IMG/VR virus record: IMGVR_UViG_3300045241_000093
Coordinates: 1-41,188 of that record
DNA from: a virus
Reading direction: 5' to 3' (one strand)
DNA: 41,188 nt
Positions within the stretch are counted from its first letter, which is position 1, and every line of letters starts with the position of its first letter. Below the pieces are notes generated by a model. That model worked only from the letters and a program-made list of their open reading frames with translations. It was not told where the DNA came from and searched no databases. The translations under genes and the position numbers were made by a program. Positions 8,255-41,188 of this stretch are shown here, in pieces.

Positions 8255-8257
8255 CGG

Positions 8258-13723: not shown

Positions 13724-13728
13724 ACCGG

Positions 13729-14001: not shown

Positions 14002-14022
14002 GGTGATCCGCTCCTTCCTGGG

Positions 14023-14349: not shown

Positions 14350-14370
14350 TCGTGTGTTCCTTTCGGTGTG

Positions 14371-15078: not shown

Positions 15079-15332
15079 GGAACGTTGATCGTCTGACCGA
15101 CGCGGGTTTGCGCCTGCGCCGCGGTGTCGAGCGCCTCGCGCGCACGCGCGCCTGCGGCGCGCACATCAGGGATCAGACTTGCCAGCGGCGAGCCGGGTTC
15201 CGCGGAGAACGTCCGCTGGTAGAGCTCGTTCGTGTGCTGCGTGTCTGTCGCGGCGAAGTACGACACCGAGATCAGCACGCCGCTCTCGCCGTTCGCGTCG
15301 ACCGCCTTTACGACCGCCACCCATGCCGCCAT
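15075..15332 (-). CDS. Hypothetical structural-block protein, 85 aa
   Basis: An 85-aa protein with an N-terminal beta hairpin-like stretch (WVAVVKAVDANGESGVLISV) and a C-terminal amphipathic helix (LIPDVRAAGARAREALDTAA). An AGGGGG Shine-Dalgarno lies upstream of the ATG. It overlaps the LamG gene by GTGA. It might be a small virion or assembly factor; no family is recognised. Confidence 0.65.
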   Translation of the reverse strand: MAAWVAVVKAVDANGESGVLISVSYFAATDTQHTNELYQRTFSAEPGSPLASLIPDVRAAGARAREALDTAAQAQTRVGQTINVP

Positions 15333-15341
15333 GTGTGCCCC

Positions 15342-15617
15342 CTAGATCAGGTCGATCGAGCCGAGGATCGTGCCGGCCAGCACCTCAACGTAGACACCGC
15401 TTGGGTAGAGCGGTGCGCCGTTCGGCATCGAGTACGACTCCGACGCCGACGCGTTCGCCGGAAGCTGCACTTGTATGTACCGGGTGCCGGTCACGCTGCC
15501 GTCGCGGAAGTTGACGGTCGCTGCGACGCCGGTGTTCGACAGGTGCCACGACGCGATCCGTTTGCCTTTCCCGACGCCGGTGAGGTCGACGGTGCCGGTG
15601 ATCGCGAACAGCGCCAC
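15342..15617 (-). CDS. Small beta-rich protein of the decoration block, 91 aa
   Basis: A 91-aa protein reading KRIASWHLSNTGVAATVNF, then RDGSVTGTRYIQVQLPANAS and YPSGVYVEVLAGT. This strand pattern with RDGS and a polar central loop is common in small phage head or fibre-associated proteins. It starts with GTG and lacks a strong Shine-Dalgarno, so coupling to the upstream gene 7 nt away is likely. A decoration-like role is inferred from neighbours. Confidence 0.62.
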   Translation of the reverse strand: MALFAITGTVDLTGVGKGKRIASWHLSNTGVAATVNFRDGSVTGTRYIQVQLPANASASESYSMPNGAPLYPSGVYVEVLAGTILGSIDLI

Positions 15618-15624
15618 AGCCGGT

Positions 15625-16011
15625 TCAGGTGTTGCGGTACTGGACGACGAAGTTCGCGCGGTAGGTGACGCCGGTGTTCAGCGTCGTCACGAGCCTTGCG
15701 CGCGGCACGAACCTCACCTGCGACTGCGCGAGATACGCGGCGGTTGCGCCCACCGTCGTCCTCGCGATCGTCACCGCCGCCGTCTCGTTGTCGGACGGCA
15801 ACAGGATCAGGTCGAACCAGTTCGCGGACGCGTCGTTCACGGTGCCGGGGTCAAAGGTGCCCTGCGCCTTGAACGACACGGTTGTCCCGACGGCCTCGGC
15901 GACGAACTCGACCGCCCATAGGTTGCCGGCGGCGGGGAGCTCGATCCCCTGGTGGTTGTTGTTGCCGGTCGACCCCGGCGGGGCGGCGAACATCTTGAAG
16001 ATGGCGGCCAA
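15625..16011 (-). CDS. Beta-rich decoration-block protein, 128 aa
   Basis: A 128-aa protein. The start is TTG (position 16011) with GGAG six nt upstream. The sequence has alternating strands (LWAVEFVAEAVGTTVSFKAQ; WFDLILLPSDN; AAYLAQSQVRFVPRARLVTT; RANFVVQYRNT) and no cysteine or catalytic motif. The ending FVVQYRN and the arginine-rich strand resemble head-decoration beta-sandwich proteins. Function inferred only from fold-like pattern and position. Confidence 0.62.
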   Translation of the reverse strand: MAAIFKMFAAPPGSTGNNNHQGIELPAAGNLWAVEFVAEAVGTTVSFKAQGTFDPGTVNDASANWFDLILLPSDNETAAVTIARTTVGATAAYLAQSQVRFVPRARLVTTLNTGVTYRANFVVQYRNT

Positions 16012-16020
16012 TGTGGGCTC

Positions 16021-16191
16021 CTAGATCAGAGTGAGGATCAGGACGATTTCGTCGTTGTCGAACCGGGCTATCCACTCGTCTATGCGCCGGTAGTCGTCCG
16101 GGCCGATCAGCTTGACCGGGCCGCTGACGCCCGGGGTCGGCGGCGGCGGGCCGACGACGACAGCCACGCCGCCGAACGCCCACAGCAGCAT
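16021..16191 (-). CDS. Small protein with hydrophobic N-terminus, 56 aa
   Basis: A 56-aa frame starting MLLWAFGGVAVVVGPPPP, then VKLIGPDDYRRIDEWIARFD and ending VLILTLI. Gaps to both neighbours are only 3-9 nt and codons end mainly in G/C, so it is a good candidate for a real gene. The N-terminus could be a membrane segment or a small hydrophobic core. Function unknown. Confidence 0.55.
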   Translation of the reverse strand: MLLWAFGGVAVVVGPPPPTPGVSGPVKLIGPDDYRRIDEWIARFDNDEIVLILTLI

Positions 16192-16194
16192 GGT

Positions 16195-17154
16195 TTAGAC
16201 GGCGGTGAAGTAGCTGACGTTTACCCGCCAGATCGTTTGCAGCTGGATCGGGCAGACGATCGTGGTCGCGGTGTTCGCGACGCTCGATTTCAGCGGTGTC
16301 GCCGGGCTGTAGTCGAGCACCGTTACGGCGGTGCCAGCGACGGACGCCAGCTGCTCGGTCGTCCACGCGGGGTTGCCGGGAAGGTTCGTTGAGGTGATGA
16401 TGTTGCCGGCGCCCGCCGCGATACCGACCACGCTGTAGAGCTTCACGATCTGGATAGCGGTGATGTAGTGGAACAGGCCTGCTCCGGCGGCGGCCAAGGT
16501 CGCGGTGACGGCGGTGTTCACTAGGCCGGTTGCGGTGACGTGGAGGGTGGAGGCGCGCTGCTCCGCGACGGCGGGCATGACGGATTGGTCGGACGCGATC
16601 GCGACCGGCACCGACGCCGCCATCGCTTTCTGGCCGATCAACGCGGCGGCGCCGTCTGACAACCTGACGAACGCGGGGGTGCCGACGGGCGCGTCGATGG
16701 TCAGCGAGCCGGCGTTGTCGTCTACGTGAAAGACGTTCGCGGCTCCCGACACGACACCGAGCAGGCGGGCCGCGCGGTCGGTCACGTCCGGCGCCTGCGT
16801 CGCCATCGAGACTGGCACCGCGCTCGCGCGGAGTTGCGTGTCGGTGAGCGGACCTGAGACAGGCTGCGTCGCTTGGAAGAACGCGCCCGACACCGGGATC
16901 GCCGACTGGTCCGACGCCACGACGACGGGCAGAGAGTTCGCCATGACCTTCTGGCCGACGTAGGCTGCCGCGCCGTCCGACAGCCGCACCCACAACGGGC
17001 CGCCGACCACACCGGCTGCGGCGGACGAGTCGAGCGTTCCGTCTACGAGCTTGACGCGCTGGTAGTGGGTTCCCGCGACGTCGTCTGTCGCGATGACCGT
17101 CGCCGCCGGCGGAGTCGCGAGCGTCGCCGACTGCGTGGTGATGTTGTCAGCCAC
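16195..17154 (-). CDS. Virion protein with an internal duplication
   Basis: A 319-aa protein. Residues about 53-90 and 159-196 are repeats of one another: each has VRLSDGAAA, a GQK segment, then PV and ASDQS. These 38-residue repeats are typical of structural proteins that pack several similar domains. The C-terminal region (FHYITAIQIVKLYSVVGIAA, WRVNVSYFTAV) looks beta-rich. Start GTG; it overlaps the upstream gene by 8 nt. It is probably a decoration or base protein; there is no enzymatic signature. Confidence 0.7.
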   Translation of the reverse strand: MADNITTQSATLATPPAATVIATDDVAGTHYQRVKLVDGTLDSSAAAGVVGGPLWVRLSDGAAAYVGQKVMANSLPVVVASDQSAIPVSGAFFQATQPVSGPLTDTQLRASAVPVSMATQAPDVTDRAARLLGVVSGAANVFHVDDNAGSLTIDAPVGTPAFVRLSDGAAALIGQKAMAASVPVAIASDQSVMPAVAEQRASTLHVTATGLVNTAVTATLAAAGAGLFHYITAIQIVKLYSVVGIAAGAGNIITSTNLPGNPAWTTEQLASVAGTAVTVLDYSPATPLKSSVANTATTIVCPIQLQTIWRVNVSYFTAV

Positions 17155-21083: not shown

Positions 21084-22631
21084 TTATGCGAAGAAGGTTT
21101 TCCGCCGGCGCGGTTTGCGTCGGTCGTACTGCTCACGGAGCCACTCGGACCGTGTCTGCTGCTCCGTCTTGTCGTGCTGGATGCCGCCGACGTAAGGCTC
21201 CGACGACGGCGACGGCCGGGTCATCGCGGCGTACCTGCACATCGCGGCGGCGTGGCCGTGCTGCGACTCCCATGCCGGGTCGACCTTCTCGCCGCCGTCG
21301 GCTTTGTCGAGCGGCTGCAACGGCGCCGACTCGAGCTCCTCCACCACCTTCGCGCACCGTTCACGGTGGAAGAACATTCGGGGCGCCCCCGGCTCGCCCG
21401 CCCTTGGATGCCACGGCGGGAACCGATGGTTCGGGTCGATCTTCAACAGTTCGCGGAGACGGATCATGCCGGCGCGCGGATCGTTGTTCGCTTTCGTGAT
21501 CGCGACGCCGTTGTCGTGGAACTCGTCGGAGAGCATCGCCGGGTCGCCGAACTTGTTGACGTTGCCGGTGCGATGCCACACCGACGGGTCCATCACCGCC
21601 GCCGACGTCGTGCGCCACAGCCGTCGGCGGTCCAACACGAGCGGCGCGAGTTGCGACGGCAGCTTGTCGCGTTCGTACAACAGGTCGTACGCGATCATGT
21701 TGCCTTCGTAGTCGACCGCCCACAGACACCACGGCGCACCGTTCAGCCCGTAGTCGGCCGCCTCGAAACGGTCGTGCGAGTTCTGCAACGCGAAATCGTC
21801 AACGATGTGTTCATCGAGCACTTGGTACGCGAGCCCCTCCGCGACCTTCCAATCGCCGAGCTCGAGTTGCAACCTCAGTGTCTCGCCGAGGTGCGACAGA
21901 CCGGCCCGGTACGCGACGGCGTCTACGTGTTCGTTGTCGGCGAGCTTCGCCGGAATGAACACCCGCCGGCCGCGCGGCTTCCCGTCGATCGGGAACCTGC
22001 GTTTCACCCACTGGTGTCCGACGCCGCCCGGGTTCGACGCCGCCCGCATACGCAACGGCACCTTCGACAGAGGACCCTCCGACGGGCGGCGCAGCCGGGA
22101 GAACAGGTACGTGTATTGCGCTTCGGGGAACTGCGTCAACTCGTCAAAAGCGACGTACTGGAACTCGGCGGACTGGTAGCGGAGCTCATCGAGCGCGTGG
22201 TCCATGTAGGCGAACTGGATCGACGCGCCGGACGGGAACGCCCACTGTTTCAGCTGGTCGTTCCAGCGCACCCCGTTCTTCTCGAACCGCACAAGCCACT
22301 CCCGCGACCGCGCCATGATCGCGCCCGGCAGCGCCAGATCGGTGAACGTCTTGCGGAAGATGATCGCGGCGTACCCGGGAACGTCGACGTACTCCAACGC
22401 ACCCATCAGCAACCAATCCGACTTGCCGCCGCCAGCAGCGCCGCCGTAGAACACCTCCGACGGCTCATTGTCCGGCAGGAACCGGTGCGCGACGAGCGCG
22501 ATCGACTGTCGTTCAGTCGGTGCGTGCGGGCAGAACTTCGACAGCCGCGGCGTCAACAACTCCCGCATCTGCTCGCCGGATAAGCCCGACTTGTTCCAGT
22601 CCGGCGAGGATGCGCCCGAAGTCTGGTTCAA
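21084..22631 (-). CDS. Terminase large subunit
   Basis: A 515-aa packaging motor. The ATPase domain has Walker A GGAAGGGKS (63-71), Walker B EFQYVAFDE (156-164) and a coupling motif RAASNPGGVGHQWVK (196-210). The nuclease domain shows candidate acidic sites in ADYGLNG and VMDPSVW. The last part, WESQHGHAAAMCRYAA, sits where many terminases carry D-x-H-A-x-D-A, but both aspartates are replaced here, so the third metal ligand is uncertain. It overlaps the 3' end of the small subunit by 119 nt in another frame. It pumps DNA into the prohead through the portal. Confidence 0.88.
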   Translation of the reverse strand: MNQTSGASSPDWNKSGLSGEQMRELLTPRLSKFCPHAPTERQSIALVAHRFLPDNEPSEVFYGGAAGGGKSDWLLMGALEYVDVPGYAAIIFRKTFTDLALPGAIMARSREWLVRFEKNGVRWNDQLKQWAFPSGASIQFAYMDHALDELRYQSAEFQYVAFDELTQFPEAQYTYLFSRLRRPSEGPLSKVPLRMRAASNPGGVGHQWVKRRFPIDGKPRGRRVFIPAKLADNEHVDAVAYRAGLSHLGETLRLQLELGDWKVAEGLAYQVLDEHIVDDFALQNSHDRFEAADYGLNGAPWCLWAVDYEGNMIAYDLLYERDKLPSQLAPLVLDRRRLWRTTSAAVMDPSVWHRTGNVNKFGDPAMLSDEFHDNGVAITKANNDPRAGMIRLRELLKIDPNHRFPPWHPRAGEPGAPRMFFHRERCAKVVEELESAPLQPLDKADGGEKVDPAWESQHGHAAAMCRYAAMTRPSPSSEPYVGGIQHDKTEQQTRSEWLREQYDRRKPRRRKTFFA

Positions 22632-26354: not shown

Positions 26355-26600
26355 ATGGCTGCTAAGACGTACAGCTGTTTCGGCGGCCGCGATTCTTTCC
26401 AGGTGGTCGCGGTTTACCCTTCGGGACACCGTTACGAGGTTCGGGCGCCGCATGACACGCTCGAGGGTGCGGTGGCCCATTGTCGCGCGTGCGAGGTCGA
26501 CAGTGACCCGCGCGACACGTGGACGTATCAGGTCGACGTTTACTACACCGGGTCCGACGGTTGCCGGCATTGGCGCGGCAACGTCGGCGGGGAGGCGTGA
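26355..26600 (+). CDS. Small hypothetical protein, 81 aa
   Basis: An 81-aa beta-rich protein (SFQVVAVYPSGHRYEVRAPH; TWTYQVDVYYTGSDGCRHWR), linked to the previous gene by the repeated junction with GGAGG inside the last codons. Three cysteines and several His could bind a metal, but the spacing is not a recognised pattern. Function unknown. Confidence 0.68.
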   Translation: MAAKTYSCFGGRDSFQVVAVYPSGHRYEVRAPHDTLEGAVAHCRACEVDSDPRDTWTYQVDVYYTGSDGCRHWRGNVGGEA

Positions 26601-26603
26601 GCG

Positions 26604-26756
26604 ATGAAAACCACGCCCGGAACCAGTGTCCGCACACCCGACGGCGTCGGTTACGTCGTCGGGCGCCACAAGCGGCGCGGTGTCCTGTATGCGTCTGTTC
26701 GGCTCGCCAACGGCGCGGTGTACGTCTACCGCGTCGACGCGATCGAGGAGGCGTGA
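26604..26756 (+). CDS. Small hypothetical protein, 50 aa
   Basis: A 50-aa protein: MKTTPGTSVRTPDGVGYVVG, then RHKRRGVLYASVRLANGAVY and an EEA end. It resembles a small SH3-like beta barrel (KOW-type pattern with a gly-rich loop). The Shine-Dalgarno GGAGG lies in the upstream gene's last codons. No function assigned. Confidence 0.65.
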   Translation: MKTTPGTSVRTPDGVGYVVGRHKRRGVLYASVRLANGAVYVYRVDAIEEA

Positions 26757-26759
26757 GCG

Positions 26760-26921
26760 ATGGCTACGACGCTCGAGCGGCTGGTGCGTAACGCGTGGCT
26801 TGCGTGGGGCGATTACGCGCAGCACACGGTTTGTCAGGGTTGCGGCCGGTTTGTGTATTGCCGGCGTCATCGCCGCGGCCCGTGGTTGTGTCTGGACTGT
26901 TTCGATCAGAAGGAGGCGTGA
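26760..26921 (+). CDS. Small zinc-ribbon protein, 53 aa
   Basis: A 53-aa protein with two CxxC pairs: TVCQGCGR and WLCLDCFDQ, separated by an Arg/His-rich FVYCRRHRRGP segment. This is a zinc ribbon, probably nucleic acid-binding. The N-terminal helix (TTLERLVRNAWLAWGDYA) is amphipathic. It carries the repeated junction at both ends (ends KEA). Function in the phage is unknown. Confidence 0.68.
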   Translation: MATTLERLVRNAWLAWGDYAQHTVCQGCGRFVYCRRHRRGPWLCLDCFDQKEA

Positions 26922-26924
26922 GCG

Positions 26925-27119
26925 ATGAAATCCCCGTGGGCTATCCCTAACGATCCGCGCATCACTCAACGGCTCGAGGCGTTGCGCGTCGAGTTGCGGG
27001 CGGAGCGGATCAGTTACGGCGAGCTGCTCGAGCTGCAAGGGCTGGCCGGCCACATCGACCCTGGTGACGTTGAGCTCCTCGAGGCGGCCGGCGTCCCTGA
27101 GTTTCAAGAGGAGGCGTGA
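26925..27119 (+). CDS. Small helical protein, 64 aa
   Basis: A 64-aa, mostly helical protein (DPRITQRLEALRVELRAERI; YGELLELQGLAGHIDPGDVE) ending EEA. The acidic C-terminal half resembles small helical DNA mimics or partner-binding proteins, but nothing specific is recognised. The start follows GGAGG in the conserved junction. Confidence 0.65.
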   Translation: MKSPWAIPNDPRITQRLEALRVELRAERISYGELLELQGLAGHIDPGDVELLEAAGVPEFQEEA

Positions 27120-27122
27120 GCA

Positions 27123-27281
27123 ATGCAAATCACCAAGATCACCCATGAACCGGGGAAGGGGAGTTACGCCGTGGACATTCGTTTCGGGCCTAGCGTGGCG
27201 GCGCGCGTGTTCGGTCCTGCGACGTTGGGCGAGTGCGAGCGGTACATCCTCGAAAAGACGATCGCGGCAAAGGAGGCGTAA
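27123..27281 (+). CDS. Small hypothetical protein, 52 aa
   Basis: A 52-aa protein, MQITKITHEPGKGSYAVDIR followed by FGPSVAARVFGPATLGECER, then helix and a KEA end. It has a small beta hairpin and one helix. Junctions at both ends carry the repeated GGAGG-stop-start signal (GTGAGCA before its ATG). Unknown function. Confidence 0.65.
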   Translation: MQITKITHEPGKGSYAVDIRFGPSVAARVFGPATLGECERYILEKTIAAKEA

Positions 27282-27284
27282 GCG

Positions 27285-27614
27285 ATGACGTGGGAGAAGA
27301 ATCCCGGCGGTAAGCGCTACAGCTGCACGACCGACGCGGGCCTGTTCAGGCTTGTGCGTCAGAATACGGCTGCGGGTGCTGCACGGTGGCGGGCGACGCT
27401 CGAGCGTGGCGGGACCACGCGCGTCGTCGCGAGTGTTCACTACTTGCGTGACGCGAAGGCCGCCTGCGAGCTCCGTCTTTCGGAGGAGCTCGAGGCGCAC
27501 GCGGAGCTCGAGCGCTGGCACGCGACGCTGCCGCCGTCGGTCGAGTTGTGTACGGTCAACGGGACTACGTTCTACGGGTCCCCCGATTGCCTGTACGTCG
27601 GCGAGGAGGTGTGA
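27285..27614 (+). CDS. Hypothetical protein, 109 aa
   Basis: A 109-aa protein with a beta-sheet front (RYSCTTDAGLFRLVRQNT, ARWRATLERGGTTRVVASVH) and a helical middle (AKAACELRLSEELEAHAELE), ending GEEV rather than EEA. It begins directly after the repeated junction (GGAGGCGTAAGCG). No known family. Confidence 0.66.
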   Translation: MTWEKNPGGKRYSCTTDAGLFRLVRQNTAAGAARWRATLERGGTTRVVASVHYLRDAKAACELRLSEELEAHAELERWHATLPPSVELCTVNGTTFYGSPDCLYVGEEV

Positions 27615-27617
27615 GCG

Positions 27618-27866
27618 ATGGCCGCGATGGATCACAACGCAGCCGATCACGATTGGGAGTCCTGCCGCGAATGCGTCGAGCAGGCCAAGCGGGACGAGAT
27701 TCTCGGACCGGACGCGGAGCCGTTCGGCATCCATCAGAACGGACAGACGAGGCTCGAGGTGTCCGGTGAGCAGCGCGAGTTGCTGCCGATCGCGGATGAG
27801 CTCATCCCTACCGACGGCGGCGATCGGTCGGCGGCGGACCTTGAGCTCGAGCGCCGGCGTGCGTGA
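27618..27866 (+). CDS. Hypothetical protein, 82 aa
   Basis: An 82-aa, acidic protein with an N-terminal CRECVEQ motif next to His residues (MDHNAADHDWESCRECVEQA), which may bind one metal ion, and a Glu/Arg-rich C-terminus. The start follows the repeated junction; its 3' end overlaps the next HTH gene by 8 nt. Unknown function. Confidence 0.62.
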   Translation: MAAMDHNAADHDWESCRECVEQAKRDEILGPDAEPFGIHQNGQTRLEVSGEQRELLPIADELIPTDGGDRSAADLELERRRA

Positions 27867-29220: not shown

Positions 29221-29404
29221 GGGCGAGCGCCTCGAGGTGGCACCGCCGGCAGCGTTTCGCGCGCGCGTACTTCTCTCCGCCGCATTCGCAGAGGTCGCGG
29301 CGGTAGCCGGCGTACCGGCCATCACGCATGTAGCCGGTGTGTGCCTTGCGGCATCGGTCGCAATGGCAGCCGTGGAGGTAGCAGCTGACGGTGCCGTGGG
29401 TCAC
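29213..29404 (-). CDS. Zinc-finger protein of the HGT/CxCxxC family, 63 aa
   Basis: A 63-aa protein: MTHGTVSCYLHGCHCDRCRK, YAGYRRDLCECGGEKYARAK, RCRRCHLEALARG. The HG-T, C-x-C-x2-C and YxxxLCxCG segments match two units of the larger 145-aa protein at 34310-34747. The conserved clusters could coordinate two zinc ions. Such proteins are frequent in actinophages but without known function. The stop is TAA. Confidence 0.65.
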   Translation of the reverse strand: MTHGTVSCYLHGCHCDRCRKAHTGYMRDGRYAGYRRDLCECGGEKYARAKRCRRCHLEALARG

Positions 29405-29796
29405 GCGGCCGCCCGCAGTTTGGCGCGTGCTGAGTTGACGGCGTTCTCTGCCTGTTTCCAGCTGAGTCCTTCGGCGGCCGCTATCTCATGGTGGGTGGCG
29501 CCGGCGGCCGCCCGGATCAGGCAGCGGCGTTGGCGCGGCGCGAGCCGGCCGACAGCCTCGAGCGTTTGTGCGAGCTCGTCGCGGGCGATGACGGCGGCGA
29601 GGGTCAGGTCGTCGCCGGCGCCGTGGGCGGCGGTGTCGAGCGTCACGGCGTCCGTGAGGAGCCGGTGCTTGCCGCGGGTCGCGGCCCGGGTGACGTCGAC
29701 CAGGTGCAGGTAGACGTTCCGGTCGAGCAGCCGGGCGAGCGCCGCCTCCTGGCGGTAGTCGTCGCGGTCGAGCCACGGCGCGAACAGGAACCTCAT
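29401..29796 (-). CDS. RNA polymerase sigma-like / sigma region 4-like protein
   Basis: A 131-aa protein. The N-terminus WLDRDDYRQEAALARLLDRN resembles sigma region 2 of ECF-type factors, and the C-terminal AVGRLAPRQRRCLIRAAAG, then ATHHEIAAAEGLSWKQAENA and SARAKL match sigma region 4 HTH. It is short compared with typical ECF sigma factors (about 160-190 aa), so it could be a partial sigma or a region 4-like anti-activator. Located next to the integrase and attP. Could switch host RNA polymerase to late genes. Confidence 0.65.
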   Translation of the reverse strand: MRFLFAPWLDRDDYRQEAALARLLDRNVYLHLVDVTRAATRGKHRLLTDAVTLDTAAHGAGDDLTLAAVIARDELAQTLEAVGRLAPRQRRCLIRAAAGATHHEIAAAEGLSWKQAENAVNSARAKLRAAA

Positions 29797-29990: not shown

Positions 29991-30206
29991 TTACTCCAAC
30001 CCCTCTAGAACGTAGACGACGCGGCCGTGGATCAGGTCGCGGCCGCGGCGGTGGTAGACGAGCGGCTGCGGGATTTCAAAGGCGTCAGTCCCCATGACAC
30101 CCAAGTAGCTGATGACCGGCTGCACCGGGACGTACCAGCATGGGCGGTCGTCGGGCAGATTCTCAACGCGCCCGTCCCACGGTCCGCCGATGAACTCCGC
30201 GATCAC
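29991..30206 (-). CDS. Small hypothetical protein after the integrase, 71 aa
   Basis: GTG start at 30206, Shine-Dalgarno GAGGAGG about 5 nt upstream and partly in the integrase 3' end. Contains IAEFIGGPWDGRVENLPDDR and WYVPVQPVISYLGVMG and ends YVLEGLE. Resembles small phage proteins with the GGPWDG motif. Possibly an excision or control factor; function unknown. Confidence 0.62.
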   Translation of the reverse strand: MIAEFIGGPWDGRVENLPDDRPCWYVPVQPVISYLGVMGTDAFEIPQPLVYHRRGRDLIHGRVVYVLEGLE

Positions 30207-31210
30207 GCGTCCTCCTCGCCGCGCATCGACCGGAGCACGCGCGCGAGGTCCTCGGTGTCGAAGCCGGCGTACGCGTCCCGGGTGGTGCCTATGTCGGAGT
30301 GGCCGAGGAGTTCCTGCGCCGCCGTCAGGTTGCCGGTCTTGCGGACAATGTCGGTCGCGACGGTGTGGCGGCCGCGGTGCATCCCGAACCCCTTGTGGTC
30401 GTCGGTAACGACGCCGGCCTGCTCGAGGCACCTGTACCACCACGTATGGACGGAGCGGGGCACCAGGCCGCGCTCATGCCGCCGGTAGGTGCGCATCCCG
30501 CGGGTGTCGGTGCGGTACAGCAGGTGATGGTCGAGGATGACGTCGCGGCCGCCGAGCTCGATCTCGAGGGCGCCGAGGTCGCGCCAGAACGGTTCGTCCA
30601 CGATCGGGACGATCCGGACCTTGCCGCCTTTGCCGGTGACCGTTAGCGTGCGACGCTCGAAGTCGAAGTCGCGGAACCTCACGGCGGCGAGCTCGGCACG
30701 CCGGAGCGCGTAGACCAAGATGAGCCAGCAGCCGAGCTTGTCGGCGAGGTAGTCCTGCGATGCGAGCACGCGGGAGACGAGTCCGCCGCTGAACGGCTCA
30801 CGGCGCACCCCGCGGCGCTTCGGCGACGCGAGCGCGCGGGCAGGGTTGCCGATCACGCCGCGCCGCTCGCGCACCGCCCAGTCGAAGAAGTCGACCCACA
30901 CCGACCGGACCTTCGCTCTCGTGCGGCCGGCGGAGTCGCCCCAGTAGTGGTCCCAACACTCCCGCAGCCGCTCCGTGCCGACGGGCGCCTCAAGGTCGGC
31001 GAGGGTCAGGTCGGAGAAGAACAGGGCAAGCCGAGCGAGGATGGACTCGTAGTCGCGGATCGTGTCCTTGGTGGCTCCCCATTCGCTGCGTTTCCAGCGT
31101 ATGTAGCGTGCGACCTCGAGCCCGAGGGGAGTCGAGCGGTAGCTCTTGTCTCTCAGGGCGTCACGGAGGATACGCGCCGCGGCGCCGAGCTCCAACAGGG
31201 TGCCGGTCAA
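30203..31210 (-). CDS. int: Tyrosine recombinase integrase
   Basis: A 335-aa integrase. The N-terminal core-binding domain has YIRWKRSEWGATKDTIRDYE. The catalytic domain shows Arg in VYALRRAELAAVRF, Lys in TVTGKGGKVRIV, the HxxR box in HRGRHTVATDI, His in LGHSDIGTT and nucleophile Tyr at residue 314 in TRDAYAGF. It splices phage DNA at attP, the tRNA-like segment nearby, into the host. It overlaps a small downstream gene and follows the Cys-rich gene by 4 nt. Typical length for phage integrases. Confidence 0.95.
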   Translation of the reverse strand: MTGTLLELGAAARILRDALRDKSYRSTPLGLEVARYIRWKRSEWGATKDTIRDYESILARLALFFSDLTLADLEAPVGTERLRECWDHYWGDSAGRTRAKVRSVWVDFFDWAVRERRGVIGNPARALASPKRRGVRREPFSGGLVSRVLASQDYLADKLGCWLILVYALRRAELAAVRFRDFDFERRTLTVTGKGGKVRIVPIVDEPFWRDLGALEIELGGRDVILDHHLLYRTDTRGMRTYRRHERGLVPRSVHTWWYRCLEQAGVVTDDHKGFGMHRGRHTVATDIVRKTGNLTAAQELLGHSDIGTTRDAYAGFDTEDLARVLRSMRGEEDA

Positions 31211-31422
31211 ATCGGGCCGTCCGTGTAGCGCTCCGGATAGTCGATGTGCGGGTCGAAGTCAGGGCGTGGCCGCGGGGTTGGTTTGTCTTGGCAGCCGTCG
31301 CGTTCGCACCGCGGCGCGTCGCACTCGCAGTCGTTTGGGCAGTCGGGATCGCCGCAGCAGTTGTCGATGAAGCCGCCCAGGTCGGCCTTCCAGCCGAGGT
31401 CGTTCTTACTCGCGTCGGTCAC
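31207..31422 (-). CDS. Cysteine-rich small protein, 71 aa
   Basis: GTG at 31422, overlapping the stop of the previous gene (GTGA); a longer start at about 31452 exists. Dense cysteines: NCCGDPDCPNDCECDAPRCE and RDGCQ. This pattern may bind several metals or form disulphides. Acidic elsewhere. It lies directly before the integrase; function unknown. No signal peptide visible, so a metal-binding cytoplasmic protein is more likely. Confidence 0.58.
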   Translation of the reverse strand: MTDASKNDLGWKADLGGFIDNCCGDPDCPNDCECDAPRCERDGCQDKPTPRPRPDFDPHIDYPERYTDGPI

Positions 31423-31577
31423 CGGCTCCGCCTTCCGGCCGATAGCCACGGCCACCGCACGATGCGACGGCGGCGGAAGAACAGGCCCGGTCGCACGTAG
31501 GTCTGGTCGGCCCACCAGAACCAGTGACGGTCGCCGCCCTTCGCATACGGATCGCTGTTCTGTCCATAGTCCGTCAC
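31419..31577 (-). CDS. Small basic protein, 52 aa
   Basis: GTG at 31577, overlapping the TGA of the transglycosylase (GTGA) and with its own stop overlapping the next GTG. VTDYGQNSDPYAKGGDRHWF, WWADQTYVRPG then Arg-rich (FFRRRRIVRW). Aromatic and positive; may be a membrane-interacting peptide. Function unknown. Confidence 0.45.
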   Translation of the reverse strand: MTDYGQNSDPYAKGGDRHWFWWADQTYVRPGLFFRRRRIVRWPWLSAGRRSR

Positions 31578-31900
31578 AGCAGACCGCACATTCGCGCCGT
31601 CTTGCGCCACGGCCAGAACCCCGACACCCGCCAATAAGCGATGCCAGCCCTCACCTGCTCCGCCGGCGTCGCGAGGTCAGCCCGGTACGCGTACTGCCGG
31701 CCGAACCGGCGCCACTCGCCCCACCCGAACTGCAACCCGCCGTAGTACCCGTTCCCCGTGTTCGCGTCCCACGCACCTTCGTGGGAGTGGATGCAGAGGA
31801 ACGCTTTCCAGAGCCACGATTCCGGTTCGGCTTTGGACGGTAGGGCAGCAACCAGAGCAGCGGAACAAGCAGCGGCCACGAGTGCGCGAGCATGAGTCAC
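31574..31900 (-). CDS. Secreted Rpf-like transglycosylase
   Basis: A 108-aa protein, GTG start overlapping the previous stop. A signal peptide (THARALVAAACSAALVAALP) precedes the transglycosylase-like domain: WLWKAFLCIHSHEGAWDANT, NGYYGGLQFGWGEWRRFG, ending ARMCGLL. This is the resuscitation-promoting factor type fold of actinobacteria; Glu41 in SHEGAW is the likely acid, Cys36 and Cys105 might form a disulphide. It cleaves peptidoglycan outside the membrane. It sits in the lysogeny region, not the lysis cassette, so it may act in the lysogen or in entry. Confidence in the family is high, in role low. Confidence 0.85.
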   Translation of the reverse strand: MTHARALVAAACSAALVAALPSKAEPESWLWKAFLCIHSHEGAWDANTGNGYYGGLQFGWGEWRRFGRQYAYRADLATPAEQVRAGIAYWRVSGFWPWRKTARMCGLL

Positions 31901-32118
31901 GACACGCGCCTGTTCCTGACCAGAGAATCGACGTTCTCCCGAAGCGAGTCGAACGCCTCGCGCTCTCTAAGCGTCGGGTGTTGGTACTCCGGGTTGCGCC
32001 GCTCGTTCGCCTCAACGAAGTTGCGGGCGATCTGAGCGAGCGCGTTCATATCGTCCCGCGTCAGAGCCCGTTTGCTCGTGCCGTTGCCTTCCTCGTATTC
32101 AGGCAGTCCGTAACTCAT
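31897..32118 (-). CDS. Hypothetical protein, 73 aa
   Basis: A 73-aa helical protein: SKRALTRDDMNALAQIARNF, NPEYQHPTLREREAFDSLRE. Its ATG overlaps the stop of the DUF1996 gene and its stop overlaps the GTG of the transglycosylase. It is coupled to the two secreted proteins on either side, perhaps as a cytoplasmic accessory. Unknown function. Confidence 0.65.
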   Translation of the reverse strand: MSYGLPEYEEGNGTSKRALTRDDMNALAQIARNFVEANERRNPEYQHPTLREREAFDSLRENVDSLVRNRRVS

Positions 32119-33104
32119 GCTGTCGCCTCGTCGGCGGTCGCGCCCATCCCGGTCAGACAGTCGACCGTCGCGACCGGCATCAGGTTGTTGCACTTGAACG
32201 TGAGCGTCTGGTAGAAGCGCGACGCGAGGTTGAAGAAGTCGACGTGGAACGTCCAGTACGCGCCCGACGAGAGCGTCAGCTGCGCAGGGTCGACCATCGG
32301 GCTGTTGTCCATCGGGTTGACGAACTCGGTGCGCGTCACCAGCTGCGCGATCGGCGTGAAGCCGACGGGGCATTGGCCGTCGAACGAGTAGGTGAAGTTC
32401 GCCGGGCCGACGCCGGCGACGGTGTCGAACTGGACCTTGCCGGAGAACGACGGGTCCCACCCGTCGGAGCCCCACCCGTGCTGCTGGTTCCAACAGTCGG
32501 GGAACTCCACCACCGCTGTCACCTGTCCGGCGCCGACGCAGTTGACGGGGGAACGGGCGCCGTCGTACTGCGAGCCGCACGTCCACGACAGGTGCGGGTT
32601 GTCGGCCGGCGACGTCGCTTTCGAGTTGCCTGCGACGACAGCCATGCCGTACGGCACCGGGAGAACCGGGATGCCTTTGTGCGCGCGGAACGTCGCGAGG
32701 AACTTGTAGTTCGCGACCATCCGCGTCGTGGGTGTGTCGGTGTGGTTCGGCGCCAGCACGCCGCCGACGAGCGGGGTCGGGTTCCAGAACTCCGGCCAGT
32801 TCGAGTAGGGGATGCACGTCGACACTTGCGGCTCGTAGCCGGGGTTCGACGTCGTCCCTACCGGCAGCGTCGAGTTCGCGACGGTGTTCGCGGATACCCG
32901 GATGCGGCACCAGAAGTCGTGGAGGTGCGCCGACACCGGGACGCCGGGGCTGACGATCGGGTCGATCTGCGCCCGCATCCGGGTTGCGTCGAACTCGCTT
33001 TTGACGCTGTAGAGGTTGTATTCGTGGGTGGCGCACGCCTGCGACGCGACAGCCGCGACGAGCGCGACCACGGCGACGGCGGCGGCGATCAGTAGTTTCC
33101 TCAC
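32115..33104 (-). CDS. Secreted DUF1996 protein
   Basis: A 329-aa protein with GTG at 33104 and GGAG 5-6 nt upstream. A signal peptide (LLIAAAVAVVALVAAVASQA, then CATH) precedes the DUF1996 pattern: AQIDPIVSPGVPVSAHLHDF (46-64), STCIPYSNWPEFWNPTPL (95-112), LSWTC (162-166), VVEFPDCWNQQHGWG (188-202) and GQCPVGFTPI (233-242). The Cys after the hydrophobic stretch may make it a lipoprotein. The family occurs in actinobacterial and fungal extracellular proteins; its activity is unknown to me. In a phage lysogeny region it looks like cargo that modifies the host surface or interacts with polymer. Confidence 0.85.
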   Translation of the reverse strand: MRKLLIAAAVAVVALVAAVASQACATHEYNLYSVKSEFDATRMRAQIDPIVSPGVPVSAHLHDFWCRIRVSANTVANSTLPVGTTSNPGYEPQVSTCIPYSNWPEFWNPTPLVGGVLAPNHTDTPTTRMVANYKFLATFRAHKGIPVLPVPYGMAVVAGNSKATSPADNPHLSWTCGSQYDGARSPVNCVGAGQVTAVVEFPDCWNQQHGWGSDGWDPSFSGKVQFDTVAGVGPANFTYSFDGQCPVGFTPIAQLVTRTEFVNPMDNSPMVDPAQLTLSSGAYWTFHVDFFNLASRFYQTLTFKCNNLMPVATVDCLTGMGATADEATA

Positions 33105-33304
33105 TGGTTCTCCATTTCGGTCAGCTGGTCGCGGAGCCGGGTGCGCCACCGGTTGAGGGTGGCGAGCGCTTCCTCACGCCGCTCCGGGGCGATGACGGGG
33201 CTCGCCGCCCCGAGCCGGTCGATGCGGCGTTCGGTGTCGGCGAGCTCGGCGAGCACGTCGTCGCGGGACGCGAGCGGCAGGATCGGGCTAGAAGGGCGCG
33301 TCAC
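33101..33304 (-). CDS. Small helical protein, 67 aa
   Basis: GTG at 33304, with GGAGG 7 nt upstream lying inside the exonuclease end; 67 aa. Helical: RDDVLAELADTERRIDRLGA, then ALATLNRWRTRLRDQLTEME. Its stop overlaps the DUF1996 GTG. Possibly a small coiled-coil regulator; function unknown. Confidence 0.55.
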   Translation of the reverse strand: MTRPSSPILPLASRDDVLAELADTERRIDRLGAASPVIAPERREEALATLNRWRTRLRDQLTEMENQ

Positions 33305-34313
33305 TGTCGTCCTCCACGGCGACGGTCGGCCCGGTTTGGGTGACGTCCCACACCGAGAACTCCGTGACCGACGTGAACTCATCGAGGAGCTCCCCGGGGA
33401 TGCGCGAGTCCTGTTCCGCCAATGGCAGCTTGAACGTCCGCTTCGTCCGGTCGGACCGCTTCACCACGTAGTTGCCGACCACGTGTTCGCCGGCCGGCAC
33501 AAGTGGGTCGAGCTCCTGCTGAATCTGTTTCTGCTCCTTCTCGAACGTCTTGTCCGACCGGGCGAGCTCACGCCGCTTGTCCTTCACGTGCGCCAGCTGA
33601 ACCGCCAGCTGCAACGCTTCGCCGTTGTCGATTTCCGGCAGCGGCTCCGGCTCCCACCCCTCGAAGCAATGCGCGGCGTACAGGCAGAAGTGCCCCCACG
33701 CGTCACCCGGTTTGCGGCAGACACGGCCGGGCAGCTGCCCGGTTTCGCCCCACCCCTTGACGATGTTGACGCGCTCCCGCACCTCGCCGGCGAGGTCGTC
33801 CCAGAGTTTCGATGAGCGCGCGACGATCACGCGTTCGTCCTCCAATGTGGCGGGGTCCACGATCGCCAACGCGATGTTGTCGGCGTCCAGGCCGAGCGCG
33901 TACCCGCACGCTTGCACCAGCTTCGAGTGGATCATTTCGGCGGATGCGTGCTGCGACGACAGCACCTCGAGCACCGTGTCGGTTTCGCGGAGGTAGGCGT
34001 CGACGTGGCCGACGCCGAGCTCCCACCTGACTTGGACCTCGGCGAGTATGTCGGCGGTGTCCTCGTCGGCGGCCCGGAGGTGCGGGTACGGCAGCGTGAA
34101 GTCAGGGCCGGAGCAGACGTGGATGGTGCGGCCGGTGTCGCCGGCGGCGATCGCGATGAGGTAGTCGTGGCCGACGGAGCGGCCGCGGGCGAGTTGGCGG
34201 TCCTCTTTGATGGTGCGTTCGCGTGCCGGCGCCTTGGTTGCTTCGTACACGGCTTTGCGTGGACAGTCGCGGACGGATGACCAGCGGAGGGAAGGGATGG
34301 AGGAGACGGTCAT
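33288..34313 (-). CDS. Cas4/RecB-like PD-(D/E)xK exonuclease with likely Fe-S cluster
   Basis: A 341-aa protein. The N-terminal CRDC-like element SSVRDCPRKAVYEATKAP includes a first cysteine; the nuclease core follows: ILAEVQVRWELGVGHVDAYL and DTVLEVLSSQHASAEMIHSK (E-x-K-like strand, with Lys nearby), then QACGYALGL. Three more cysteines cluster in RVCRKPGDAWGHFCLYAAHC, as in Cas4-type 4Fe-4S nucleases. It acts as the exonuclease partner of RecT, making single-stranded ends. ATG overlaps the upstream stop by ATGA. Confidence 0.75.
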   Translation of the reverse strand: MTVSSIPSLRWSSVRDCPRKAVYEATKAPARERTIKEDRQLARGRSVGHDYLIAIAAGDTGRTIHVCSGPDFTLPYPHLRAADEDTADILAEVQVRWELGVGHVDAYLRETDTVLEVLSSQHASAEMIHSKLVQACGYALGLDADNIALAIVDPATLEDERVIVARSSKLWDDLAGEVRERVNIVKGWGETGQLPGRVCRKPGDAWGHFCLYAAHCFEGWEPEPLPEIDNGEALQLAVQLAHVKDKRRELARSDKTFEKEQKQIQQELDPLVPAGEHVVGNYVVKRSDRTKRTFKLPLAEQDSRIPGELLDEFTSVTEFSVWDVTQTGPTVAVEDDSDAPF

Positions 34314-34747
34314 GCCGCCGCCCGCTTTTCGGCCCACACGCGGCGCATCGCGCACGGCTGGCACTCCGGCGGCTTGTCGGGGTTGCGGCGGTTGATCCCG
34401 TCGACCAGGGTTCCGCACCCGTGTGAGCAGGGGACCCGTGACGCTTCGCGCCGTCTGCGTTTCGCCGCCGTCGCAGCACGGCGGCACTCGCCGCAGCGGC
34501 ACCTGCCGGAGCGGTAGCGACTCTCGGTGCCGTGCGGCGCTTCGACGTCGGCCAGGTAGCAGGCGACGCACTTCTCCGACCTGACGTCTTTCTTGTTGCC
34601 GCACGCGCAGAGGTCGCGCGCGTAGCCGGCGTACCCATGCGCCTTGTTGTATTCGCGCGCCGCGACCCGGCAGGCGTCGCAGCGGCAGCGAAGGTTGCCG
34701 TAACCGTTCCTAGTGCCGTGCCGCGGGTCGTCGGGAGCGAGGGTCAT
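34310..34747 (-). CDS. Repeated zinc-finger protein of the HGT/CxCxxC family
   Basis: A 145-aa protein with at least two similar units: HGTRNGYGNLRCRCDACRVA with YARDLCACGNKKDVRSEKC, and HGTESRYRSGRCRCGECRRA, followed by a CSHGCG...CQPC end. The unit also makes up the 63-aa protein at 29213-29404, so the two genes are relatives. Between RecT and its exonuclease it may be a DNA-binding accessory. Zinc binding is inferred from cysteines. Confidence 0.65.
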   Translation of the reverse strand: MTLAPDDPRHGTRNGYGNLRCRCDACRVAAREYNKAHGYAGYARDLCACGNKKDVRSEKCVACYLADVEAPHGTESRYRSGRCRCGECRRAATAAKRRRREASRVPCSHGCGTLVDGINRRNPDKPPECQPCAMRRVWAEKRAAA

Positions 34748-34917
34748 GCCTGCTCCTCCAACCGGAGCCGTGCGACGAGCCGGGCGAACTCGGCCCGCAC
34801 CGCCGCGGCGTACCGGGGCGACAGCGGACTCACTTCCTGCGCGACACGGCCGCGCGCGATCCGGTACAGCTGATGCCGCAGATGATGTTGGGTGGTCGGC
34901 TCCGTCACGACCGTCAC
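34744..34917 (-). CDS. Small basic protein next to RecT, 57 aa
   Basis: GTG at 34917 overlaps the RecT stop (GTGA); the stop overlaps the next ATG. 57 aa: TQHHLRHQLYRIARGRVAQE then AVRAEFARLVARLRLEEQA. Helical, positively charged at the front. Framing on both sides by overlaps supports it. May assist RecT/exonuclease; unknown. Confidence 0.55.
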   Translation of the reverse strand: MTVVTEPTTQHHLRHQLYRIARGRVAQEVSPLSPRYAAAVRAEFARLVARLRLEEQA

Positions 34918-35864
34918 GACCGCCGCCCTCCTCTCGGACCGCTAGGGATCGGGAACGCCGTCTGCTGCTCACCTTCGGCCGGCTCGTCGGGGAGCGGTTC
35001 GTCCTCGGCCGACTCCGACCACTCGTCGTCGTAGTCGGGCTCCTCGATCACCTCGCCGTCGACGGAGTCATCGGGACCCCCGCCGGACGGGTGGACAGGA
35101 GCCCCGATGGATGCGTCGATGTTCGCTTCATCGACTGTCTGAGTGGACTCGGCAGGGAACTCGGCTTCGTCGTCGGCCGCCTCGAGGATCGCCTTCTGCC
35201 GCTCGTCCAGGTCGCGAAGCGGAAGCTGCTTGAACAACCGGCGGGCTACCGTCTTGCGCGCCTGCTGGTCCCACCAGTTGACCCACGGCCCATACTCATT
35301 CGTCGCCGCGCGCGACACCGCCCGCACCTTTTCGATTTCGTTGACGTCCATGACTTCGGGCGGGCAGACCATCCGGCCGTTCGCATAGGTCGCGACGCTG
35401 TACGCGCCGATCGGTTCGCCGCGGTCCTCGCCCAACCGAGGCGGCTTGTGATGCACGTGCGGCGCCTCGCCGAGCACGTAGTCGAACTCGTCGTTCTCGT
35501 ACACGACGAACGCGTTCAGCGTGATGCCGTTGTCGGCGGCGATCTTCCGGTAGCCGCCGATCATCGGCCAGTACGCGGCCGCCTTGCCCTCCTTCACGTG
35601 GCTGTCCCGTATGTCCACGATCACGGCTTCGCGTGCGTCGGGCAGCAGCCCGTCTTGCGCGCACCGGATCACGGCCGCGAACAGCGAGGAGCGGTTGACC
35701 GTGACGAGCGCGGGGTTCTGGTTGATCGCGGTGACGGTGACGCGGACGAACCGGTCGGGAAGAATGTTGCCGGGGAGCGCGTTCGCGATCTCGGCGCGGA
35801 ACTGGTCGCCGCGGATCTGGGACACGAGCTCCTGTATCGGGGTGCGGGGCGCGAGTTCAGTCAT
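34914..35864 (-). CDS. recT: RecT-family single-strand annealing protein
   Basis: A 316-aa protein. The core is characteristic: PIQELVSQIRGDQFRAEIAN, LPDRFVRVTVTAINQNPALV, SLFAAVIRCAQDGLLPDARE, AAYWPMIGGYRKIAADNGIT, EYGPWVNWWDQQARKTVARR with LFKQLPL. It anneals complementary single strands during phage recombination. The C-terminus is acidic (PDYDDEWSESAEDEPLPDE), a usual feature for partner recruitment. The nuclease at 33288-34313 probably forms the RecE/RecT-type pair. Confidence 0.92.
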   Translation of the reverse strand: MTELAPRTPIQELVSQIRGDQFRAEIANALPGNILPDRFVRVTVTAINQNPALVTVNRSSLFAAVIRCAQDGLLPDAREAVIVDIRDSHVKEGKAAAYWPMIGGYRKIAADNGITLNAFVVYENDEFDYVLGEAPHVHHKPPRLGEDRGEPIGAYSVATYANGRMVCPPEVMDVNEIEKVRAVSRAATNEYGPWVNWWDQQARKTVARRLFKQLPLRDLDERQKAILEAADDEAEFPAESTQTVDEANIDASIGAPVHPSGGGPDDSVDGEVIEEPDYDDEWSESAEDEPLPDEPAEGEQQTAFPIPSGPRGGRRS

Positions 35865-37101: not shown

Positions 37102-37416
37102 TCACGCGGGGCTGCCGTCCGCCAGAAACGGGCCGGCGGAAGCCGGTGAACGACCTCCTGCGTCCTCTAGGAACCAATCCGGCAGACGGCCGGTCGCGCC
37201 GGCGATCTTCCGCAGCATTGGTGCCCGAGGGCGGTGGCGGGCCTTCTCTAGCTTGATGAGGTGGGCGCGGGACACGCCTCCGCAGAGCGCGCCGAGCGCG
37301 TCATGCGAGAGGTTCGCGTCTTGCCTCGCCTCTTTGATCCTGGCCGCGATCAGGTGTCCGGGCGCGAGGCGGATTCGCTCTTGGAGTTCCTCGTCCGCCT
37401 TCTGCAACGTTGCCAT
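37102..37416 (-). CDS. XRE-family HTH regulator (repressor or Cro-type), leaderless
   Basis: A 104-aa protein with an XRE-type HTH: ARIKEARQDANLSHDALGAL, GVSRAHLIKLEKARHRPRAP. The C-terminus is a short linker, so it lacks the peptidase domain of large CI repressors. The ATG lies 8 nt past the -10, so its mRNA is probably leaderless. As it heads the leftward operon with RecT and integrase it could be the Cro-type or the repressor; the neighbour on the other strand is also HTH, so roles are open. Confidence 0.82.
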   Translation of the reverse strand: MATLQKADEELQERIRLAPGHLIAARIKEARQDANLSHDALGALCGGVSRAHLIKLEKARHRPRAPMLRKIAGATGRLPDWFLEDAGGRSPASAGPFLADGSPA

Positions 37417-37503: not shown

Positions 37504-37866
37504 ATGACCGCAGGGTGGGATGCGTCAGGGCGACTTTCGGCGCTATGGGGGCGCGTCGGCGGCCGCGACCGGCTCGCCGAACTGACCGGCATCCGGCCGG
37601 AGACACTGAGCTCCTACAACTCCGGCGGCCGGCCGCTCGGCTACGCCAACGCCGAGAAGATCGCCGCCGCGCTCGACGTCAGCCTTGTGGAGCTCGGAGC
37701 GCCCGTGACGGAGGCGAACGGTCACGCCGTGCCGCTTCTCGATCTGCTGGCACGAGTGTCAGGTGCGGGCGAGAAAACCCGGGAAGCTCTCGAGCGGTTG
37801 ACGCAACGGGTGGAAGCCCTAGAACGCGCCGGTGAGTCGCGTCGGCGCGGGCGCAGTTCTCGTTGA
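37504..37866 (+). CDS. HTH regulator with C-terminal coiled coil (second switch gene)
   Basis: A 120-aa protein. HTH-like unit at the front: GRVGGRDRLAELTGIRPETL then SSYNSGGRPLGYANAEKIAA, ALDVSLVELGAP. The C-terminus has a leucine-rich coiled coil (KTREALERLTQRVEALERAG) that would mediate dimers. Transcribed divergently from the XRE gene. A weak TTGTGA-18-TACGCT promoter precedes it with a short leader. It may be the immunity repressor, or Cro-like; it overlaps an antisense gene in its 3' half. Confidence 0.72.
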   Translation: MTAGWDASGRLSALWGRVGGRDRLAELTGIRPETLSSYNSGGRPLGYANAEKIAAALDVSLVELGAPVTEANGHAVPLLDLLARVSGAGEKTREALERLTQRVEALERAGESRRRGRSSR

Positions 37867-38298: not shown

Positions 38299-38895
38299 TT
38301 AGACGTCGACGCCGCGAAGGATTTGCAGCGCCATGTACCGGATCGGCGCGATCTCGCTGACGAGGTTCGCCGGGCACGCCGTCGCGAAAAACTTCGAGTG
38401 CGGATACGACGGCAGGATCGTCAGCCGGCGGTACTTCTCGGCGATCCACGCCATCAGCGTTGCCGACGCCACACGCTGCGCGTTCGTCATCGCCTCGGTC
38501 CCGAGGTGCTCGTGCTCGATGCCGATCTGGTTGTTCTGGCCGGGACAGTGAGCGGACACGACCATCCGCCGCTGCTGAATCTGCGACACCGTTCCCCATC
38601 GGCCCTGCAAGATGTGACCGGCCCGGGTGACGAGGAAGTTATGCCCCGAGTCCTTCCACGGCTTCGACGGGTCGGTGGCGGACGGATGGGTGTGCGACCA
38701 CTGAATGTCGCGCGCGTACCGGATCGCTTCCTCGAGCGACTCGTCGGCCGGGTTCTCGATTTCGTGGTGGTGGCCGGCGGTGTGGTGGAAGATCGTCCGG
38801 ATCGCCGGCCCGTTCGTCGGGGTGATCGGCGAGAGCGGCTCCTTCGCGCCCCACTCAGGGCACGTGATGATGTTGATGGCGATAGCGACCGGCAA
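38299..38895 (-). CDS. Endolysin: N-acetylmuramoyl-L-alanine amidase (Amidase_2/PGRP type)
   Basis: A 198-aa protein. Zinc ligands of the amidase_2 fold: His in TIFHHTAGHH, His in VVSAHCPGQNNQIGIEHEHL, and His/Cys in YPHSKFFATACPAN. The GHNFLVTRAGHILQGRWG segment is the typical core. It hydrolyses the bond between muramic acid and the peptide. No separate wall-binding domain is evident. The neighbouring holin completes the lysis pair. Confidence 0.9.
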   Translation of the reverse strand: MPVAIAINIITCPEWGAKEPLSPITPTNGPAIRTIFHHTAGHHHEIENPADESLEEAIRYARDIQWSHTHPSATDPSKPWKDSGHNFLVTRAGHILQGRWGTVSQIQQRRMVVSAHCPGQNNQIGIEHEHLGTEAMTNAQRVASATLMAWIAEKYRRLTILPSYPHSKFFATACPANLVSEIAPIRYMALQILRGVDV

Positions 38896-40387: not shown

Positions 40388-41188
40388 TCATCTGCCGTAC
40401 CTCTGTTGCAGCAGAGCGAACAGCCGGTTCATGGCGCCGGATTCTCCGGACGCGTCGGCTGCCTGACCGAGCCGACGTCCGTCGTAGCGCCCTGGGAACG
40501 TGCGGTAGTGATAGGAGTGCGCCGCATGGACAGGGTCGACGGGGTCCGTGTACGGGTTCTCGCGCACCTGCAAACCGAGTTGCTGCGCCAACCGGATGCT
40601 GGCGAGTTCGGTCTGCGGATTCGTTGACGCGAAGTGAATGTGCTCACCCGTTGAGTGCGTCGGACCGCCGATGCCTTCGTGCAGTAGTTCCGCAAGTGAT
40701 CCGGGCGCGGCGACGCCGCCGACACCCGGGTTAGAAGAATCTCGCGCCGGCGCGCCCTGCCGCGCTGCGGTGGGTTCAGCGGAGGCTAGAGGCGCCGGCG
40801 CGACCGGCGGGGCGTTACGCGCTGCGAGCGCCTTGATGATAGGCGTAAACGATGACAGCCCCGGCTTGTCGAATCCCGCCGCGAGCTCGAGCAGCAACCG
40901 CCGCCGGTCGCCGCCTCCCGCCGGCGTCGGGGTCGGGCCTGGTCCCATCATCGCCGGGCCGCGCATCGGCGCCGGCGAGCTCGAGCCGTACGCGGACAGC
41001 GCGTTCGCTATCTCGCGTTGCGGGTTCGCCGGCCGCTCGAACTTCGACACGATCGCCCGCACCGCGGCGGGACCACGCAAACCCCCGGCCACCTTGCCGA
41101 CCTCGCCGAGCGTGTAGTCGATCCCCTGCGGTGACCACGCCCACGCCTGCGACGCGCCAGCGCCGCGCGGGGCGAACGCCGGGTAAGC
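40388..41188 (-). CDS. Lysozyme/lytic-transglycosylase-like virion protein, C-terminal part (gene crosses the junction)
   Basis: Continues the gene whose start is at 305-307 on the circle; frame is kept across the overlap of the repeats. The middle is Pro/Ala-rich, SSPAPMRGPAMMGPGPTPTP, then AGFDKPGLSSFTPIIKALAA. The C-terminal about 90 residues form a second domain: HSTGEHIHFASTNPQTELAS, then AHSYHYRTFPGRYDG and RRLGQAADASG, a His-rich layout like small metal-bound wall-lytic or wall-binding domains (H-x-H...G-x-A-x-D). Two-domain muralytic enzyme probable; catalytic details not proven. Its stop precedes the coiled-coil/membrane gene. Confidence 0.78.
   Translation of the reverse strand, partial: AYPAFAPRGAGASQAWAWSPQGIDYTLGEVGKVAGGLRGPAAVRAIVSKFERPANPQREIANALSAYGSSSPAPMRGPAMMGPGPTPTPAGGGDRRRLLLELAAGFDKPGLSSFTPIIKALAARNAPPVAPAPLASAEPTAARQGAPARDSSNPGVGGVAAPGSLAELLHEGIGGPTHSTGEHIHFASTNPQTELASIRLAQQLGLQVRENPYTDPVDPVHAAHSYHYRTFPGRYDGRRLGQAADASGESGAMNRLFALLQQRYGR
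41062..41188. repeat. Right copy of the 127-nt exact terminal direct repeat
   Basis: Identical to 1-127. The same coding frame of the lysozyme-like gene passes through both copies, so joining them restores one gene. Confidence 0.95.

Follow-up and report, generated by a model that had tools for sequence, protein, structure and literature searches.

The 41,188-nucleotide stretch of viral DNA analyzed here (IMG/VR record IMGVR_UViG_3300045241_000093, the window in what follows) is a complete 41-kb phage genome, and its minus strand carries at 32115-33104 a gene that, judged by sequence, is a real but very divergent member of the DUF1996 family (Pfam PF09362). DUF1996 proteins occur widely in Streptomyces and in fungi; no biochemistry has been assigned to the family. 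The reading that we favor, tentatively and with somewhat less than even confidence, is that the gene is exported accessory cargo of a temperate actinophage, lies in an early leftward operon, and encodes a protein that may modify or mask the host envelope with a presumed protective effect. Comparison across the family yields a concrete, testable hypothesis, namely an exported protein with an HxH/HxD metal site and copper-protein neighbors. This neighborhood and the broader spread of DUF1996 among phages are the more useful results.

Genome organization and the leftward operon

Bases 1-127 of the window are identical to bases 41062-41188, forming an exact 127-bp direct terminal repeat. The genome encodes a terminase large subunit (21084-22631), an amidase endolysin (38299-38895), a tyrosine integrase (30203-31210, minus strand; PF00589, 58.4 bits; phrog_1, E = 1.8e-32), and two HTH_3 regulators identified with Pfam. 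One regulator leads the leftward operon (37102-37416, minus strand), and the other, transcribed divergently (37504-37866, plus strand), is a candidate repressor. The integrase and the two HTH_3 genes are those expected of a temperate phage. A promoter-like site (TTGACA-17-TATACT, 37453-37425 on the minus strand, 11 of 12 consensus positions) directly precedes the first HTH gene of the leftward run. It is the only sigma-70-like site found in the 9.5 kb between 29000 and 38500, where 0.6 would be expected by chance.

From the start of recT (35864) to the end of the integrase gene (30203), minus-strand genes form an unbroken chain of overlaps, nearly always of 4 bases. The gene for the RecT annealing protein (34914-35864; PF03837, 104 bits) is followed by two small ORFs, a nuclease-like gene (33288-34313) assigned by eye from a Cas4/RecB-like Cys pattern (Pfam and NCBIfam searches were empty), a 67-aa ORF (33101-33304) that overlaps both neighbors and matched nothing in a family search, and the DUF1996 gene, whose coordinates are exactly those of a 329-codon ORF that starts with GTG. 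Next come a 73-aa ORF (31897-32118) with no signal peptide seen and no Pfam or PHROG match, the gene for an exported 108-aa protein with an Rpf-like transglycosylase domain (31574-31900), a 52-aa ORF in which W and R are abundant (31419-31577), a 71-aa Cys-rich ORF (31207-31422), and the integrase gene. The DUF1996 gene shares GTGA with the gene upstream and ATGA with the gene downstream.

The first-pass annotation had placed the DUF1996 gene in a lysogeny region, in one overlap-coupled run with a secreted Rpf-like transglycosylase, and had read the two as lysogenic cargo. The coupling is as described, with the transglycosylase gene two genes downstream, the 73-aa ORF between, and all of them in 4-base overlaps. 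The regional label suits the integrase downstream in the run and does not suit recT and the nuclease-like gene upstream in the same run. Predicted export, accessory status, an exported and putatively muralytic neighbor, and an intact integrase in the phage agree with cargo; a lysogen-specific role is unsupported, because the coupled recT-integrase operon leaves no room for a separate promoter. Near the DUF1996 gene, we found no promoter-like or terminator-like site on the minus strand. A moron would carry its own promoter and terminator, and this gene is overlapped on both sides; like a moron, it is accessory and missing in relatives, which are distant and in some cases fragments. Nothing in the sequence appears to single out DUF1996 as an independently expressed moron.

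Several features elsewhere in the genome were also observed. On the plus strand at 26591-27629, successive small genes carry five near-identical start-associated sequences (GGAGGCGTGAGCGATG), which span stop codon, Shine-Dalgarno sequence, and start codon and resemble the SAS repeats found in some mycobacteriophages. Three tandem paralogues of 227-230 aa with ~695-bp spacing (repeat families D1 and D5; 6872-8950, minus strand) may be tail proteins or lie on the virion surface. The large ORFs tested at 509-20596 (minus strand), presumed to be structural, gave no Pfam or informative PHROG match except for a weak amidase-like stretch at 8963-10480, and this phage seems to have strongly diverged virion proteins. 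A small protein encoded at 29401-29796 (minus strand) resembles sigma-70 region 4 (20 bits, below cut-off) and could be a sigma factor of the phage or a regulator that binds DNA. Two related short stretches (29266-29316 and 34585-34635, 78% identical) lie inside small cysteine-rich ORFs and perhaps represent duplicated small zinc-ribbon genes.

The DUF1996 protein and the neighboring transglycosylase

The Pfam match of the 329-aa protein scored 56.8 bits (E = 4.4e-15; curated cut-off 27) and covered profile positions 1-235 of 237, corresponding to residues 48-292 (32229-32963). A six-frame search of the window gave 57.4 bits, with none of 14 control genomes positive, and a profile-profile comparison, run against a few bacterial and phage DUF1996 proteins, gave a probability of 98% (E = 2.8e-13). 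These three results place the family match far beyond chance. The first-pass observation of a clear DUF1996 pattern, with a signal peptide and a Cys directly after it, is borne out. Residues 1-23 (33036-33104; MRKLLIAAAVAVVALVAAVASQA) precede Cys24, the protein begins MRKLLIAAAVAVVALVAAVASQAC, and AlphaFold places a helix at residues 2-24; the protein is thus predicted to be exported. Lipid anchoring is uncertain, since Cys24 agrees with the loose PROSITE lipobox pattern PS51257 and fails the stricter Gram-positive pattern G+LPP.

Across 46 DUF1996 sequences, the HxH motif (H60 and H62 in the window copy; 32919-32927) is invariant, the HxD motif (H287 and D289; 32238-32246) is at least 90% conserved, and several cysteines are also conserved. 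The window copy keeps the DPIxxP head motif (D48-P-I-V-S-P53), HxH (H60-L-H62), CP (C245-P246), H287, D289, and the core cysteines in an intact ORF. In the middle motif, DxSxYWxP, the aligned stretch is NWPEFWNP and retains W and the final P alone; the GW of the HxDxxxGW tail motif is gone. The invariant HxH and near-invariant HxD, putatively the two halves of one metal site, suggest a secreted metal protein, perhaps a copper protein, and we offer metal binding by DUF1996 as a hypothesis drawn from these motifs and from the gene neighborhoods described below.

Structure prediction gave a good AlphaFold model for the window protein (pLDDT 77.5, pTM 0.78; from an alignment that left out four rows from annotated records) and an excellent one for a canonical phage member, L010 (pLDDT 93.2, pTM 0.91). 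At E = 1e-3, neither model matched a fold in the PDB, and the window model matched nothing among viral models; a sequence search for solved-structure homologues gave none of use. With no PDB match for either model, the DUF1996 fold may be a new one, or it may have diverged too far to be recognized. A defense-gene identity was also considered and dropped, as PADLOC defense models left the window gene unmatched at E values up to 0.1.

The transglycosylase scored 43.7 bits against PF06737 (cut-off 27) and has its own signal peptide. The phage protein resembles actinobacterial Rpf-like proteins, with a match in 62 of 396 Actinomycetota genomes. Its E41 can be aligned, across a two-residue gap, with the conserved Glu of a relative, L201, and both end in TARMCGLL. 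NCBIfam Rpf equivalogs scored 38 bits against cut-offs of 180-200, by which it is not an Rpf orthologue. Searches of viral contigs returned no close relative of either the transglycosylase or the nuclease-like gene. A transglycosylase gene beside DUF1996 was absent from all 19 other phage records and all 34 bacterial loci compared, so a conserved pair is rejected and the pairing is private to the window phage. Cargo is still a plausible idea, yet neither of its two supports, a placement specific to lysogeny and a muralytic neighbor that recurs with DUF1996, stands up.

DUF1996 in other phages and in bacteria

No match to the window protein was found among isolate phages (at E = 1e-5), and single-protein searches of viral contigs returned no close homologue. 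Searching phages for the family as a whole, as the first-pass annotation had proposed, recovered DUF1996 in at least 18 IMG/VR contigs besides the window and in one GenBank phage, MW202423.1 (UOF76731.1, annotated as hypothetical; 133 bits). Clear phage genes are present in several of these records: terminase, portal, and major head protein in L022, tail protein J and endolysin in L015, a tail spike in L011, a prohead protease-capsid fusion in L199, and an endolysin in L016. The site itself varies, being found after tail protein J and before the endolysin, after the tail spike, after the endolysin, or between terminase and portal. Some phage copies are fused to other domains, including LysM (L019), a GDSL esterase (L021), Calx-beta (L016), and PKD (L017). 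In the phage contig L021 (272-2167), the protein that joins DUF1996 to a GDSL esterase-like domain has no obvious signal peptide. L199 (G011; 13351-16197) has two adjacent and quite different DUF1996 genes downstream of its prohead protease-capsid fusion, one of which groups with the bacterial copy L169. Relatives of the window phage lacked DUF1996 whether identified by RecT (0 of 41) or by terminase (0 of 47), these relatives being distant and many of them fragments; from this absence (0 of 88), the gene is accessory in phages. The literature searched contained no paper treating DUF1996 in a phage, and the annotation's statement that the family has no established biochemistry holds there as well.

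In a tree of 50 DUF1996 domains, 13 phage copies formed one clade (support 100/99). The window copy fell outside it, on a very long branch (1.73) among actinobacterial chromosomal copies and with no supported sister. Forcing it into the phage clade was mildly rejected (AU p = 0.013, to be read with caution given the long branches). On supported branches, the family must have changed between bacterial and phage carriers at least twice, and acquisition by phages on at least two occasions points to some use of the exported protein in infection or lysogeny. The tree placement and the Rpf-like partner make an actinobacterial host likely.

Bacterial DUF1996 loci came from two sources: a genome-collection scan with a narrow alignment, which returned Streptomyces and Kitasatospora only, and a separate search that supplied the broader actinobacterial set. 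The chromosomal relatives are exported, often with lipoprotein-type leaders. In one clade of eight Actinomycetota loci, every DUF1996 gene adjoins a gene for a beta-helix lipoprotein (matching Pfam NosD in most cases scanned), and seven of the eight loci encode a plastocyanin/azurin-type cupredoxin. At two further loci outside this clade, the neighbor is a gene of the DUF305 (CopM) type; CopM itself is a copper-binding protein (PMC4335983). A copper-protein neighborhood thus occurs at 10 of 34 bacterial loci, at separate places in the family and largely in one clade. The cluster of cupredoxin lipoprotein, NosD-like beta-helix lipoprotein, and DUF1996 (L185, L188, L190, L192, L193, L195, L196, and L312, with the cupredoxin absent from L190) is not described in the papers searched. 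Streptomyces loci have other neighbors, a large discoidin-domain protein gene at 79 of 80 and a GH3 gene at 35 of 80, and streptomycete copies carry His/Met-rich stretches after the leader (e.g., VDHSAHRAGAVMPMAP).

Fungal work ties DUF1996 to stress and to sensitivity toward metals (PMC7679414, PMC4738358). Sensitivity to several metal ions has been described in mutants (PMC4738358), and the domain is often fused to CBM1, CBM6, or WSC, with a suggested link to polysaccharide degradation (PMC7679414).

Possible functions and comparison with known systems

On the reading that we favor, an accessory, horizontally acquired phage gene would give rise to a Sec-exported, disulfide-rich DUF1996 protein that acts beyond the cytoplasmic membrane of infected cells. 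Its gene would share the early leftward transcript with those for the HTH regulator, RecT, the nuclease, the transglycosylase, and the integrase; co-transcription with these recombination and integration genes leads us to expect it early after infection or induction. Any expression in a lysogen would come from leakage or from an unseen internal promoter. The protein would most likely modify or mask the host envelope, possibly through its HxH and HxD metal site, while the co-expressed transglycosylase would open the peptidoglycan locally. As a presumed net effect, the infected cell or the lysogen would be protected, for example through exclusion of competing phages or altered surface properties.

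We also weighed other explanations. DUF1996 might be a secreted protein that binds a metal, most likely copper, with HxH and HxD as ligands, and the phage copy might bind or deliver surface copper; if so, the host would be shielded from copper stress or copper-dependent envelope oxidation would be supported. The NosD-like neighbors in 8 of 8 loci and cupredoxins in 7 of 8, the DUF305 genes at two more, the conservation of both motifs, the His/Met-rich streptomycete stretches, and the metal sensitivity of fungal mutants all point in this direction. The neighborhood nevertheless covers 10 of 34 loci, mostly in a single clade in which the window copy has no supported place, the NosD label may reflect the beta-helix fold alone, and Streptomyces loci have carbohydrate-type neighbors instead. 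No cuproprotein fold was matched, and the fungal mutants showed no Cu2+ sensitivity, which counts against a simple copper role. We consider this explanation possible, if doubtful. That DUF1996 is an unrecognized secreted family for copper or another metal, with a fold of its own and captured by phages at least twice to alter the metal chemistry of the infected-cell envelope, seems to us unlikely. A surface-glycan module that binds or cleaves polysaccharide, remodeling wall or capsule glycans together with the transglycosylase, would account for the discoidin and GH3 genes of Streptomyces, the LysM and GDSL fusions in phages, the CBM1, CBM6, and WSC fusions in the literature, and the transglycosylase close to the window copy. 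It is somewhat unlikely, given that no glycosidase or lectin fold was matched, that the copper-linked clade has no common glycan enzyme, and that the transglycosylase link recurs nowhere else.

The gene surroundings in L009, L011, L014, L015, and L016, with tail and endolysin genes, would fit a late or structural protein aiding release or adsorption. We judge such a role very unlikely for the window copy: a virion role is disfavored by the early-operon location, remote from the terminase gene and from the large ORFs presumed to be structural, the phage encodes an amidase endolysin of its own, and a Sec signal peptide would be unusual in a tail part. The window copy could also be drifting, as its long branch and the loss of DHxSH and GW allow, and with no conserved linkage it might be a captured host gene without function in the phage. 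The intact ORF, the retained core cysteines and HxH/HxD, and the tight translational coupling speak against such a passenger, which we find quite unlikely.

The operon in which we place this exported accessory cargo resembles the PL operon of lambda. In lambda, recombination genes of the left operon are followed by accessory genes and then by integration genes, and the same succession is seen in the window. Exported phage envelope proteins with a proposed exclusion role include Ltp of TP-J34 and gp41 of the Cutibacterium acnes phage Aquarius, the latter with high early expression (PMC11480721); neither is known to be homologous to DUF1996, and both are proposed to act on adsorption or DNA release. 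The DUF1996 proteins of other phages are likewise phage-borne, mostly exported, and in most cases complete in the domain; they differ in being larger and modular, in lying mostly in tail, lysis, or packaging regions, and in having no transglycosylase partner. Rpf-like transglycosylases of PF06737 are, like the one in the window, small, exported, and single-domain, with a NTGNGYYGGLQF core; the window's transglycosylase is two residues shorter around the catalytic region. Compared with actinobacterial DUF1996 proteins, the window copy lacks the first family Cys, DHxSH, and the final GW, has insertions near residues 80-95 and 205-240, and is located in a phage early operon. With the secreted or lipoprotein-type actinobacterial members, it shares DPIxxP, HxH, CP, HxD, the core cysteines, and a signal peptide, with a best identity of 33% over 249 columns (L155).
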